Positions 2,045-57,386 of a DNA stretch of 64,000 nt are shown in pieces. Both the position numbers and the translations under genes were made by a program. Within the stretch, counting starts at the first letter, position 1, and each line of letters starts with the position of its first letter. Source of the DNA: Deltaproteobacteria bacterium (GTDB lineage Bacteria; Myxococcota; JADLHZ01); the NCBI GenBank assembly GCA_020848545.1, contig JADLHZ010000084.1:124001-188000 (forward strand), in the 5' to 3' direction. The notes below the pieces were generated by a model. That model was not told the origin of the DNA, made no database searches, and saw only the letters and a program-made list of their open reading frames with translations.

Positions 2045-3307
2045 ATGGCTCAGCCACAATGGCGCCCTTACCGCTTCAAGGGCTTGCCGAAGTACACGCG
2101 CGAATCAGCGGCGCTCCTCGCGAGCTTCTCCCGCTACCTCGGCGTGTCGAGCTATGGTGCGCGCCTGCTCAGCGAAGTGGCCAAGGTGGCGACCGACGTG
2201 TTCCGCGAAGAGGTGACACTCGAGTTCGATCACCTGCGCGCGATGAGCTTCGAAGAGATCGCCATGAGCGTGCCGGAGTACGCGTGCCTCGTGCGCGTCG
2301 GGTTGCAGCCGAAGGAAGAGAAGGTGGTCTGGGAGCTCGATCCGGTGCTCGCGGCCGCGCTCGTCGAGCGGCTGCTCGGCGGCAAGGGCGAAGACATCGG
2401 CATGAGCCGGCCGTTCACCGACATCGAGCGCGGTGTGCTGACCTACGGGATTCTGAAGATCGCGAGCGCATTCCAAGCGAACCTCGCGCAAGGCAGCGAG
2501 CTCGCGGTGCGCGTCGAGGCGATCGAGCAGTCGATCGATCCCTATCGCACGCTCTATCAAGACGACCTCGCGTTTCACACGCTGAGCATCAAGGCGAGCT
2601 TCGGCGGCGTCGCGGCGTTCTCGCGCGTCTTCGTGCCACACACGCTGACCGCCGGGGCGTTCTCGATCCCGGACGAGCCCGACGGCAGCGAAGGCCACTG
2701 GCAGCTCTTGCGTAAGAACCTCTCCCGCGTCGGCGAGCAGTGGCTCGTCGGCCGCGTGAAGGTGGCGACGATCGATCTCGCGCACGAAGACATCGCCGCG
2801 CTCGACAAGGGCGACATCGTGCTCATCGAGAACCATCAGCTGCAGGGCACCGGCGAGGCGCTGAGCGGTCAAGCCGACGTGCTGCTCGGGCGCGCGAAAA
2901 ATGGCGTGGTGCGCACACAGCTACTTTGGCGTAATGGTCGGTGCGATCTGCAGATCTCCGAGCTCGCCTTGCAACAGGAGCCGCAAAACATGTCCGACGA
3001 ACAAGACATCCCAGCCGAGCCCGTCGAGGTCGAAGAGGGCGGCGAAGCTCCGGCGGCGCCCGCCGACAACATGCAGGAGGCCGAAGGGCTCTTGCGCGAC
3101 GTGCCAGCTCCGGTCGTCGTCGAGCTCGGCCGCTTGAAGATGAGCACCTCGCAGGTGATCCGGTTGAAAGCCGGGCAGATCCTGCGCCTCGGCCGCAGCC
3201 CGAGCGATCCGGTGGACCTCGTGGTGAACAACCGCATCTTCGCCCGTGGCGAGCTCATCGAGATCGACGGCGAGCTCGGCGTGCGCTTGGTCCAGCTCGC
3301 GAAATGA
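2045..3307 (+). CDS. sctQ: Type III secretion C-ring protein SctQ (FliM/FliN-like)
   Basis: A 420-aa cytoplasmic protein of the sorting platform/C-ring of an injectisome. The C-terminal SpoA (FliN) domain covers about residues 350-420 (VELGRLKMSTSQVIRL, then VDLVVNNRIFARGEL). The N-terminal part is a FliM-like middle domain. A length near 420 with one terminal SpoA fits SctQ better than separate FliM and FliN. Between the two parts lies an acidic, Pro/Ala-rich linker. I use ATG 2045 rather than TTG 2042. The stop overlaps the next ATG (ATGA). It heads sctQ - fliO-like - sctR - sctS - sctT. An internal start for the C-terminal domain is annotated separately. Confidence 0.85.
   Translation: MAQPQWRPYRFKGLPKYTRESAALLASFSRYLGVSSYGARLLSEVAKVATDVFREEVTLEFDHLRAMSFEEIAMSVPEYACLVRVGLQPKEEKVVWELDPVLAAALVERLLGGKGEDIGMSRPFTDIERGVLTYGILKIASAFQANLAQGSELAVRVEAIEQSIDPYRTLYQDDLAFHTLSIKASFGGVAAFSRVFVPHTLTAGAFSIPDEPDGSEGHWQLLRKNLSRVGEQWLVGRVKVATIDLAHEDIAALDKGDIVLIENHQLQGTGEALSGQADVLLGRAKNGVVRTQLLWRNGRCDLQISELALQQEPQNMSDEQDIPAEPVEVEEGGEAPAAPADNMQEAEGLLRDVPAPVVVELGRLKMSTSQVIRLKAGQILRLGRSPSDPVDLVVNNRIFARGELIEIDGELGVRLVQLAK
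2990..3307 (+). CDS. Possible separately translated SctQ-C (FliN-like) product within sctQ
   Basis: An in-frame ATG at 2990 is preceded by CAGGAG (2975-2980) at 9-nt spacing, a better SD than the full-length gene has. The product would be 105 aa: an acidic N-terminus (MSDEQD...) plus the whole SpoA domain, much like a free-standing FliN. Internal initiation yielding a SpoA-only subunit is established for YscQ, SpaO and Spa33. Its use here is inferred from the SD spacing and the domain boundary. Confidence 0.45.
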   Translation: MSDEQDIPAEPVEVEEGGEAPAAPADNMQEAEGLLRDVPAPVVVELGRLKMSTSQVIRLKAGQILRLGRSPSDPVDLVVNNRIFARGELIEIDGELGVRLVQLAK

Positions 3308-48853: not shown

Positions 48854-49524
48854 TCATCCTGCTCTTCGACATCGATGGCACTTTGATCACGACCGGCGGC
48901 GCCGGACGGCGGGCGTTGGAGCGCGCCTTCAACCACCGCTACGGCAGCACGAACGTCTTCGACGGCTTTCCCTTCGGCGGCATGACCGATCCGGCGATCA
49001 TCCGCGCCGGCATGCAGCGGCTCAACCGGCCTTACGACGCGAACGAGCAGCGTCATCTCTTGGACCTCTACGTCGAAGCGCTCGCCGACGAGCTGACGAA
49101 GAGCCCGCACCGCTTGCACGACGGCATGCACGATGCGGTCGCGCGATCGCGGCAACGGGCGAACGCCGCGGTCGGGCTCGGCACCGGCAACATCGTCGAG
49201 GGCGCGCGCAAGAAGCTCGAGCCGCTCGGCGCGTACGAATGGTTCTCGTTCGGCGGCTTCGGCAGCGATCACGAGGATCGGGCCGAGCTCATCAAGAAGG
49301 GCATCGAGCGTGGGGCCGCAGCGCTCGGCAAAGATCGCAAGGACTGCCGTGTCGTCATCATCGGCGACACGCCGAAGGACGTCGAAGCCGCGCTGGCGAA
49401 CGGCGCCGAGGCGGTGTGCGTGACGACCGGCAGCTTCACCGCCGAGGCGCTCCACGCATGCGGCGCCCACAAGGTCTACGCGAACCTTGCAGCGCCGGGA
49501 GCTTGCGACTACCTCCTGGGCTGA
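48814..49524 (+). CDS. HAD-superfamily phosphatase
   Basis: 236 aa. Motif I FDIDGTLI (Asp nucleophile at about 19) and motif III-IV VVIIGDTPKDVEAA are clear. A helical cap like that of phosphoglycolate phosphatases lies between (FGGMTDPAIIRAGM, LYVEALADEL). The substrate is unknown. No other start codon lies between ATG 48814 and motif I, so the first residues (MNKLSPRQNGPRP) appear to be encoded partly by the REPIN-like arm, and no SD is visible. The lipoprotein gene follows after 13 nt. Confidence 0.85.
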   Translation: MNKLSPRQNGPRPLILLFDIDGTLITTGGAGRRALERAFNHRYGSTNVFDGFPFGGMTDPAIIRAGMQRLNRPYDANEQRHLLDLYVEALADELTKSPHRLHDGMHDAVARSRQRANAAVGLGTGNIVEGARKKLEPLGAYEWFSFGGFGSDHEDRAELIKKGIERGAAALGKDRKDCRVVIIGDTPKDVEAALANGAEAVCVTTGSFTAEALHACGAHKVYANLAAPGACDYLLG

Positions 49525-49537
49525 ACGGAGGCCTCCC

Positions 49538-50854
49538 ATGCACCGAATCTCTCTCTTGCTCCTGGTCCTCGCGGCTTGCGGTCGCGGCGGTGATCCCGTC
49601 GGTCCCGGTACGAAAGCGGCCGAAGTCGAGTTCGCCAACGCGATCCCCGAGTCGACGGCGTACGTCATCGGTGACGAAAATACTCCTGCGCGCGACGAGA
49701 CCCCGGCGCGCGATGAGGCCGCTCGCGATGCCGGCGATCGCTCGTTCATCGCCGCGCAGCTGCGCACCGAGGCCGACGGCGTCAACGAAGCGATCGCGAA
49801 GGTCGTCTCGCTCGTGCAGAGCGCGGTCAAAGGCGTGAATCCTTCGCGCACGACCGGGTCGAGCCACGTCTGGGTCATCGACACGCAAAAAGGCGTCGTC
49901 GTGCGGATGACCTTGGAGAAGACCGGCGAGCTCGCGTTCGCGTGGAAGGCCGAGGTCCGCAAGACGAACGCGCAGGACAAGACCTACGTGAAGGTGGCGA
50001 GCGCCACGCTGCTGAAGAACCCCGAGCTCAAAGGCCCGCGCGGTCGCGTCACGCTCGGCATCGACTTCGATGCGTTCGCCACCGTCGCCGAGGGCACGCA
50101 GGCAGCGGCAGCCGCGCGCGGACGCCTCTTCGTCGCGGGCGTGCACGGTCCCAAAGGCGCGCATCATCGCTATCGCCTCGACGGCTTCACACCGAACGAA
50201 GCGACGCGCGGCGCGTTGACGGCCTCGTTCGAAGCGTTGCGCGGCGGCACCCCGACGATCCTAAAGTTGCGCGGCGCCGGCAGCGCGGATCTTGCCGGCT
50301 TCGTCGCCGCGGCAGGCACCACGAACACGGCCGAGGTCGAGCGCTTCCACGTCCGCTTGCGCCGCATCGGTGGCATCGCCGGCATCCCAGGCTTCGGCGG
50401 ATACTTGCGCGGCGTCGCCTTCGGCGGCGACATACCCGCAGGCCACGCGTTCTTGGTGCGCGAGTGCTGGAACAATGTGGACGACGTCGTCTACCGACGC
50501 ATTTGGGACTGCACCGCGACGGACGGAATCGTCGCCGCGACGAGCTGCACGCTGAAGACGGCGGGCAAGGCGAGCATCGGCGCCGACGGCGTGACGGTGA
50601 CGACGAACAACCCCGTCGATGAGGCGAGCTACGCCACCTTCAAGGCGCTGTGCTTCCCCGACGTTCCGAGCTTCGGAAAGGCGCAAGCGGTCGACGGCGC
50701 CGCGGCCGACCTTCGCGCCGAGGCGACGTTCTCCGTCGGCGACGCGAGCCTCGACGCCAGCGCCGCCGTCGACGCAGCGGTCGGCTCGCCGCCGACGAAG
50801 GACTTCACCGGCGCCGACGCCGACGCTGACCCGCCGCCTAGCGAGCTGCCATAG
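49538..50854 (+). CDS. Uncharacterised lipoprotein
   Basis: 438 aa from ATG 49538, behind CGGAGG. The signal peptide and lipobox (LLLLVLAACGR) give a lipoprotein with Cys14. There is a short acidic tandem motif (PARDETPARDEAARDAGD) near residues 50-67. A large beta-rich body follows (SSHVWVIDTQKGVVVRMTLE, GRVTLGIDFDAFATVAEG), with three Cys in the C-terminal third and an Asp/Pro-rich end. No family is recognised. Its TAG stop is the first three bases of the 165-bp palindrome. Confidence 0.75.
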   Translation: MHRISLLLLVLAACGRGGDPVGPGTKAAEVEFANAIPESTAYVIGDENTPARDETPARDEAARDAGDRSFIAAQLRTEADGVNEAIAKVVSLVQSAVKGVNPSRTTGSSHVWVIDTQKGVVVRMTLEKTGELAFAWKAEVRKTNAQDKTYVKVASATLLKNPELKGPRGRVTLGIDFDAFATVAEGTQAAAAARGRLFVAGVHGPKGAHHRYRLDGFTPNEATRGALTASFEALRGGTPTILKLRGAGSADLAGFVAAAGTTNTAEVERFHVRLRRIGGIAGIPGFGGYLRGVAFGGDIPAGHAFLVRECWNNVDDVVYRRIWDCTATDGIVAATSCTLKTAGKASIGADGVTVTTNNPVDEASYATFKALCFPDVPSFGKAQAVDGAAADLRAEATFSVGDASLDASAAVDAAVGSPPTKDFTGADADADPPPSELP

Positions 50855-51016
50855 AGTCTGACCGAGTAACCGCTCCCGTCGGATCTGCATGCGCTTGCGG
50901 GCGCTTTTTTGCGCCAAAATCCTCGACATGGAACCACCATGCCTCCGGTTTTGCCGCAAAAAATCGCTTCGCAATCACATGCACCTCCTCGGTCCGGGTT
51001 ACTCGGTCAGACTCTA
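50852..51016. repeat. 165-bp full-length palindromic element supplying both convergent stop codons
   Basis: The terminal 20 bp are perfect inverted copies: TAGAGTCTGACCGAGTAACC at 50852-50871 and its complement at 50997-51016. The apex CATGG-AACCA-CCATG (50927-50941) sits exactly at the midpoint, and the inner arms align with scattered mismatches and small gaps (TGCATG, TTGCG, TTTTTTGCG, CAAAA in both). The outer TAG is the stop of the lipoprotein gene on one strand and of the DAHP synthase gene on the other. It is MITE- or REP-like and a probable bidirectional terminator. Confidence 0.8.
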
Positions 51017-52354
51017 ATCCGCGATCGACCCGGCGATGCGAAACGCCATCTCGAGCGCTTGGCGGTAGTTCAGCCGCGGATCGCAGAGCGACGCGTAGTT
51101 GCGATCGAGATCCGCTTCGCTCAAGCCGCCACCGGTGCACTCGGTGACGTCTTCGCCGGTGAGCTCGAAGTGGACGCCACCCAAGGTCGTCCCGGCTTCC
51201 GCATGCGCCGCGAACGAATCGGCGATCTCCTTCGAGATGTCGTCGAAGCTGCGCGTCTTCAGCCCGCTCGGCGTGGACTTCGTGTTGCCGTGCATCGGAT
51301 CGGTCACCCACAAGACGCGGCGGCCCGCCTTCTTCACCGCCGCGAGCAACGGTGGCAGCCCTGCGCGCGCTTTGTCGGCGCCGAAGCGCGTGATGAGCAC
51401 CATGCGTCCAGGCTCGTTCGAAGGATCGAGCGCGTCGAGCAGGCGGAGCACGTCGTCCGTGCTCGACTTGGCCGAGAGCTTCACGCCGATGGGATTACTG
51501 ATGCCGCGAAAGTACTCGACGTGAGCGCCGTCGAGCGCGCGCGTGCGCTCGCCGATCCACGGTAGGTGCGTGCTCAGGCAGTAAGTCTTGTCGCTCGGCG
51601 GCGCGCGTCGCGTCTGCGCGGCCTCGTAGTGCAAGTGCAGCCCCTCGTGGCTGGTGAAGAACTCGACGCGCGAGAGGTCGTCGATCTTCGCCTGGGTGAT
51701 CGCCTGCATGAAGCGCAGCGCCTCGCCGATGTCGCGCGACGTCCTCTTGTATTGCTCGCGCAGCGCGTCCGAGACGTCGGCGCGTTCGAAGAACGAAAGA
51801 TCCCAGTACTCCGGATGGTGCAAGTCAGCGAAGCCGCTCGCGGTCAGCGCCCGGATGTAGTTCAACGTGACGGCGGCGTGATCGTAGGCGCGGCGCAAGA
51901 GCGTAGGATCCAACGCCCGCGCCGAGGCCGTGAACTCAGGGCGGTTGAACATGTCGCCGAAGTAGCTCGGGAAGGACGCGTTGCCCCGTTGCTCAGAGGC
52001 GTTCGACCGCGGCTTGGCGTATTGGCCGGCGATGCGGCCGACGCGCACGACGGGGCGCTTCGTCGCGTGGATGAGCACGAGCGACATCTGCAGCAGGATC
52101 TTCAGCTTGTTCGTGATGACGTCCGGGCGGCACTCTTGGAAGCTCTCGGCGCAGTCGCCGCCTTGCAGCAGGAAGCGCTTGCCGTCTTGCGCCTCGGCGA
52201 TCTGGCGCTTCAAGGCTTCGACTTCCCATCCCGTGACGAGCGGCGGCAGGCGCCCGAGCTCGGCCAAGACAGCCTGCAACGCGGCGTCGTCGGGGTACGG
52301 TGGCAGCTGTGAAACGGGCTTCTTTTGCCAGGACGCTGGCGACCACGAATCCAT
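51014..52354 (-). CDS. aroG: Class II DAHP synthase (plant type)
   Basis: A 446-aa 3-deoxy-7-phosphoheptulonate synthase of the type II family, first enzyme of the shikimate pathway. Signatures are LQGGDCAESFQECRPD (metal Cys), RVGRIAGQYAKPRS, HEGLHLHYEA, WIGERTRALDGAH, VLITRFGADKA, VTDPMHGNTK and the C-terminal GGLSEADLDRNYASLCDPRL. The length is normal for class II (about 445-470). It is unrelated in family to the type I enzyme at 35621. Its stop codon lies in the palindrome, and it is divergent from the EF-G gene. Confidence 0.95.
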   Translation of the reverse strand: MDSWSPASWQKKPVSQLPPYPDDAALQAVLAELGRLPPLVTGWEVEALKRQIAEAQDGKRFLLQGGDCAESFQECRPDVITNKLKILLQMSLVLIHATKRPVVRVGRIAGQYAKPRSNASEQRGNASFPSYFGDMFNRPEFTASARALDPTLLRRAYDHAAVTLNYIRALTASGFADLHHPEYWDLSFFERADVSDALREQYKRTSRDIGEALRFMQAITQAKIDDLSRVEFFTSHEGLHLHYEAAQTRRAPPSDKTYCLSTHLPWIGERTRALDGAHVEYFRGISNPIGVKLSAKSSTDDVLRLLDALDPSNEPGRMVLITRFGADKARAGLPPLLAAVKKAGRRVLWVTDPMHGNTKSTPSGLKTRSFDDISKEIADSFAAHAEAGTTLGGVHFELTGEDVTECTGGGLSEADLDRNYASLCDPRLNYRQALEMAFRIAGSIAD

Positions 52355-57215: not shown

Positions 57216-57226
57216 CGTCACGTAGC

Positions 57227-57378
57227 CGTTGACGTCGCCGTCGCCGTCGCCGTGGCCGATCGAGTAAGAAGCCCGCGAAGCCAAGGAAGTCGGTTCGAGC
57301 GCTGTGCTCGAACCAACTATCCTTCGTGTGCATGTCCCTGTTTGTTCGGCGACGGCGACGGCGACGGCGACGTCAACG
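57227..57378. terminator. Nested inverted repeat between convergent genes
   Basis: A perfect 27-bp inverted repeat, arms 57227-57253 (starting CGTTGACGTCGCCGTCGCCG) and 57352-57378. It encloses a second hairpin GGTTCGAGC-GCTGT-GCTCGAACC (57292-57314) that extends with AGT/ACT past one mismatch. It separates the double-FHA gene from the convergent Cys-rich lipoprotein gene, so a bidirectional terminator is likely. The arm sequence recurs at 63822. Confidence 0.65.
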
Positions 57379-57386
57379 TCAACGCG

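Follow-up and report, generated by a model that had tools for sequence, protein, structure and literature searches.

The closest described counterpart to the palindrome analysed here is MITEPsy1 of Pseudomonas syringae, an IS5-related MITE of 100 nt with 18-nt terminal inverted repeats (TIRs). It derives from one IS, inserts at CTAG or YTAA, and duplicates its target (PMC3189936). Literature searches on MITEs associated with stop codons, or with the hosts studied here, yielded nothing that matches this palindrome family, and the sequence of the family's core was absent from the papers searched. An earlier statement that no named family fits thus agrees with our searches of Rfam and the literature.

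Here, we characterize a 165-bp palindrome within a 64,000-nt stretch of a deltaproteobacterial contig (JADLHZ010000084.1, hereafter the window). Together, our data indicate that it is very probably a MITE, a palindromic transposable element that is non-autonomous, is moved in trans by an IS5-type transposase and survives at stop codons; it would represent one subfamily of a larger family defined by a shared core hairpin.

Structure of the palindrome and its flanking genes

The palindrome spans 165 bp without any gene of its own, and its coordinates and sequence agree with those described in the initial annotation (Table 1). Its TIRs, TAGAGTCTGACCGAGTAACC, are a perfect 20 bp beginning with TAG, the left end matching the opposite strand of the right end exactly; allowing up to three mismatches, 0.01 such pairs of ends are expected by chance window-wide. 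The 165-base stretch pairs end to end as a single hairpin in both RNA (-91.2 kcal/mol, z = -11.8) and DNA (-52.9 kcal/mol, z = -11.0) folding, a stability reached by 0 of 200 shuffles. The apex, CATGG-AACCA-CCATG, is centred on position 50934, the exact midpoint of the palindrome. The full-length palindromy, perfect TIRs and central apex proposed in the initial annotation therefore all hold. At gathering score, Rfam contains no family matching this palindrome or 14 related loci. A reading frame through the element (..KPQSWWFHSEDF..) was not taken as coding; indels break the frame in other subfamilies.

As had also been noted, both tip TAGs are in-frame stop codons, the left one ending a lipoprotein-like gene and the right one a convergent gene for class II DAHP synthase. 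Because the DAHP synthase covers its full Pfam profile, the tip either marks the natural end of this gene or has cost it only a few residues. The rebuilt empty site of subfamily A, to which the window copy belongs, would read CCA-TA-ATC, in which case the lipoprotein stop would have been TAA before insertion. The suggestion that the element itself supplies the stops appears to be correct for DAHP synthase, an exception among insertions, but not for most of them, at which the stop is rebuilt from an existing TAA or TAG.

Table 1. Positions of the palindrome, its parts, its flanking genes and related or neighbouring repeats. Positions without a contig or locus label refer to the window.
Feature	Position	Strand	Basis
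Lipoprotein-like gene, stop = left TAG (50852-50854)	49487..50854	+	lipoprotein-like N-terminus; no Pfam match
Class II DAHP synthase gene, stop = right TAG (51014-51016)	51014..52354	-	PF01474, 600 bits, profile 1-438/438
Entire palindromic element (subfamily A) with flanking TA copies	50852..51016	.	sequence, folding, TIR match, covariance model
Left TA, putative target-site duplication	50852..50853	.	TA flanks both sides of all A and B copies and C35
Right TA, putative target-site duplication	51015..51016	.	TA flanks both sides of all A and B copies and C35
Left TIR, perfect 20 bp including TA	50852..50871	+	tip recurs as L005 fragment at stop codon
Right TIR, perfect 20 bp including TA	50997..51016	-	exact TIR match
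87-nt core region	50892..50978	+	covariance model R2, 69.2 bits
Apex hairpin CATGG-AACCA-CCATG, covarying stem and 5-nt loop	50927..50941	+	family alignment
Conserved CCTCGA, 5′ side of apex (conserved mismatches)	50921..50926	+	family alignment
Conserved CCTSCGG, 3′ side of apex	50942..50948	+	family alignment
Subfamily D loci	L268 (C98:~55315), L269 (C118:~20548), L209:12742-12828 (= L270, C36), L204:3238-3324, L212:13765-13851, L187:5866-5976, L185:11632-11743		
GTTGACGTCGCCGTCGCC-arm repeat loci	window 57218-57386; L201:12681-12831; L196:16677-16770; L101 ~847-872, 2538-2563		

Related palindromes in the same genome

Uniqueness in the genome had been named as a finding that would speak against mobility. 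The full 165-bp sequence is indeed single-copy in the 8-Mb genome, but its core and tips recur elsewhere. Three other palindromes match its central 37 bp at 89%. Besides the window copy, the genome carries seven such palindromes in two sister subfamilies. Subfamily B comprises four full 165-bp copies at unlinked loci, each on a different contig; relative to the copy used as query, the other three show 95-96% identity. Subfamily C comprises three diverged copies. Subfamily A consists of the window copy and one tip fragment at a stop codon. Searches for subfamily A among plasmids and for subfamily B among phages returned no match.

A covariance model built from the eight A, B and C elements recovers these eight in the genome. 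In their alignment, 33 of 59 pairs are substituted on both sides, and paired cells reach 91.8%, compared with 73.5% for shuffled sequence and <46% once the partner is slid by one column. Judged from these aligned sequences, palindromy is maintained through compensatory change.

Homologous palindromes are also found inside operons (KH protein-rimM, moxR-DUF58, atpF-atpH). The subfamily C palindrome between the atpF-like and atpH-like genes of the ATP synthase operon (C95:47604-47769, L034/L047) touches the stop of one ATP synthase gene and the start of the next. When 1.67 Mb of the genome was scanned for palindromes de novo, two known copies were recovered and at least one was missed, showing the limited sensitivity of the scan. 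Separately, where the 3′ ends of two paralogous TPR-like genes converge, they form a 174-bp palindrome (C33:41635-41808, L181:1635-1808) that is unrelated to the family described here.

Insertion at stop codons

The A, B and C elements start with TAG and end with CTA, the exceptions being the right ends of C34 (TCA) and C33 (TTT); the two flanks of C34 differ (TTA and TCA), and the right flank of C33 has decayed. Eleven gene ends read into an element, and at eight of them the reading frame stops at the tip TAG. At one further gene end a TGA abuts the tip, and the remaining two enter out of frame and stop at a TGA 11 bases inside.

The rebuilt target TA falls within a TAA or TAG stop in seven of nine insertions (A, B24, B25, B26, B27, C35 and the L005 fragment). 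By comparison, 2.7% of TA dinucleotides lie in stops, or 12.9% with coding interiors removed (1.65 Mb of the genome). Against the 12.9% baseline, the binomial probability of at least seven of nine is ~2e-5, an approximate value resting on crude gene calls. Four of the rebuilt targets fit a YTAR-like site.

Because a G follows the TA whatever the flank, this G belongs to the element, and because it is the element's first base on both strands, TA plus G gives TAG in both directions. These features suggest how copies could come to lie on stops. An IS5-family DDE transposase acting in trans would recognize the TIRs and insert the element at TA or, in the Geothrix branch described below, at TNA, duplicating the target, and with a leading G on both strands both junctions would read TAG inward. 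Where the target TA lies within a TAA or TAG, the stop would be rebuilt on insertion, the gene would keep it, and the insertion would be silent. In a gene-dense genome such as this one, where 79% of TAs lie inside genes, most other insertions would be intragenic and purged, concentrating the surviving copies on stops. Selection, not a stronger target preference, would then account for the stop-codon bias. Alternatively, the transposase may prefer YTAR-like sites, which resemble the CTAG/YTAA target of MITEPsy1 (PMC3189936). The combination of a TA target and a leading G offers a testable reason for small transposable palindromes sitting exactly on stop codons.

Relatives in Geothrix and an empty site

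Scanning 84,980 species for the core pattern gave matches in Geothrix (Acidobacteriota) and in Myxococcales MAGs. The core is carried by 13 of 47 Geothrix genomes, at different loci, and the core model matches 17 of 195 genomes of the phylum. One gene end is filled in G. terrae and empty in G. paludis: the empty allele reads GCGGTC-TGA-TCCC and the filled allele TGA-GCGTGTG...CACACTC-TGA, the duplicated 3-bp TGA being the stop codon itself. Comparison with empty loci, which had been recommended as a way to find target-site duplications, thus reveals one in a relative. In the set searched, the nearest relatives of the window genome share only its phylum, so that there is no empty site for its own copy, whose duplication would be TA.

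Exact TNA duplications flank 5 of the 12 Geothrix copies with both ends recognized (TGA twice, TAA, TTA and TCA) and are absent from the other 7. Some IS5 groups are known to use three-base target sites. The Geothrix end is found almost exclusively in pairs ~270-370 bp apart. Most copies are composites of ~268 bp with an extra ~70-bp hairpin beside the core hairpin (L070, L071, L084, L086, L088, L092-L100), and the G. terrae copy at L054 is short.

One and the same MglA-like gene has a family element at its stop codon in two genera (L051/L055, G030:C345; L218, G044:C53), which suggests a shared old insertion. At both loci, the left half of the element is followed by a partial tandem duplicate.

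Candidate transposase

Ends in the family include GAGTCTGACC, GGGCGTGTCCCTGAA and GTGCACC. A truncated IS5-family transposase relic in the window genome (C13:6726-6833; PF13340/DUF4096, 25.6 bits, below the curated cut-off of 34.3) has an end, TAGGGCGTGTCCCTGAAT, that shares an identical 18 bases with the tip of subfamily B. On contig C122, another IS5 relic has a similar end, GGGCGCGTCTTTGAATTC, beside a TCA. Intact transposases carrying ends of subfamily A, B or C were not found, nor was an end shared with IS5 found for A and C in the genome. Derivation from IS5 is supported for subfamily B, by a truncated relic scoring below cut-off, and is putative for A and C; for subfamily A we infer a transposase of this kind and a TA duplication. 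Searching plasmids with the N-terminus of the relic protein gave one distant match, in Rhizobium. One IS5-group element with a three-base target site is mentioned in an earlier report (PMC2516522).

A conserved core with exchangeable ends

The ~28-nt central hairpin is kept across Myxococcota and Acidobacteriota, while the terminal repeats are unrelated between subfamilies. Across nine representative subfamilies, the shared core has a mean pairwise identity of 76% compared with 57% shuffled, a conservation that is partly ascertainment, as the families were collected via the core. This does not apply to the dissimilarity of their 20-base tips, which at 53.6% identity are no more alike than shuffled sequence (54.1%), with tip positions outside the window genome and Geothrix being approximate ones set from folds. 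Both arms of the core hairpin change in concert (CATGG/CCATG, CGTGG/CCACG, CATAG/CTATG), and conserved mismatches persist in the CCTCGA and CCTGCGG flanks, a combination that points to recognition of a folded strand, either DNA or RNA.

In a further subfamily, D, the core sits within a conserved imperfect palindrome of ~110 bp. Every copy immediately follows a TAA or TGA stop and is enclosed by an inverted repeat of 7-9 bp that is unique to that copy, an arrangement resembling insertion into a terminator loop.

We raise tentatively, and with somewhat more doubt than belief, the idea that the central hairpin is the true unit of inheritance: an ancient core, recognized when folded, that swaps terminal repeats and rides the host's transposase, with gene 3′ ends as a shared safe harbour. 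A conserved centre with interchangeable ends is the reverse of the usual MITE pattern, and is seen here in two phyla. If the core were recognized by a protein or RNA factor, it would give access to the question of how MITEs outlive the IS from which they derive, and some strong gene-end hairpins currently regarded as terminators would be mobile elements.

Alternative explanations

The conserved, asymmetric and covarying central hairpin would also be expected of a REP/REPIN-type element, with a Y1 (RAYT) transposase recognizing it as single-stranded DNA, and the placement of subfamily D inside short unique inverted repeats just after stop codons fits such an element as well. We nonetheless consider this improbable. 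As is typical of DDE transposition, the A, B, C and Geothrix elements have flanking duplications and long repeats at their termini, and the GTAG/CGTC tags of REPs (PMC3733652) are absent from the ends of this 165-bp element, which are TAG/CTA. The initial proposal of a mobile palindromic element at gene ends, of MITE or REP class, is upheld by the relatives at multiple loci and the Geothrix empty site, with MITE as the type; at the level of the family, the palindromes belong to the MITE class.

A marginally poorer prospect is that the MITE belongs to an IS630/Tc1-type transposon, as RUP does, TA being the target of RUP too. An IS630 mobilizer was not supported: the genome's single IS630-type (DDE_3) gene lacks matching ends, those of subfamily B match the IS5-family relic, and the Geothrix branch duplicates three bases (TNA).

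A separate palindromic repeat with arms GTTGACGTCGCCGTCGCC occupies the gap between two other convergent genes in the window (Table 1). The same arms flank the IS630-type transposase gene, and this repeat may therefore be the MITE of that IS.

We regard as very unlikely a fixed bidirectional terminator that evolved in place between the convergent genes, the TAG coincidence being incidental. The gene arrangement, the stable hairpin and a terminator-like site on the + strand are as this explanation predicts, but homologous palindromes lie within operons, where a strong terminator is unlikely, and a relative provides a filled/empty pair; on these two grounds a locus-specific terminator was dropped. 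A search of both strands for a G+C-rich stem followed by a T run predicted two sites on the + strand and none on the - strand. The bidirectional termination originally envisaged is thus not supported by these predictions; on the + strand the element may act as a terminator.

Least probable of all is a structured RNA or mRNA-stability element under RNA-level selection and spreading vertically, which might be less a true rival than a by-product: compensatory changes along the stem, strict core conservation and sites at mRNA 3′ ends or between operon genes favour it, but presence is sporadic between species with differing neighbours, Rfam gives no match, and the pairing may also be maintained by DNA-level constraint.

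Two further candidates were dropped. The ends of integron attC sites are of the GTTRRRY type, and no such ends are present here. For CsrA binding at the apex (ATGGA), the letters of both loop and stem change in relatives.

Comparison with known systems

The family behaves like the ERIC, Correia and RUP elements (PMC2229807) and most like MITEPsy1. MITEPsy1 is likewise short and non-coding, with TIRs like those of IS5-family IS, and its target resembles the YTAR-like TAs found here; in contrast, the part of the source available describes no shared central hairpin family or stop-codon rule (PMC3189936).

The GTAG/CGTC-tagged REPs are similarly extragenic, and they too have unpaired conserved motifs and a short conserved hairpin whose loop is 4-5 nt. 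They differ in being 20-40 bp long, without long TIRs, and, for GTAG, RAYT-linked (PMC3733652). YPAL/RU-2 of Yersinia is comparable in length (~168 bp), palindromic, and recently mobile as judged by empty and filled sites. It targets dyad symmetry, as subfamily D may do, but lacks TA termini and has internal inverted repeats and variable duplications of 3-26 bp (PMC2229807).

Finally, like the present family, ERIC/IRU/RU-1, Correia/NEMIS and RUP are small MITE-like palindromes that have TA at their ends, duplicate their target and lie mostly between genes, although their sequences and hosts are different and RUP is tied to IS630. In these elements the TIR tips are the shared part, whereas in the family described here the centre is conserved and the tips vary by subfamily (PMC2229807).
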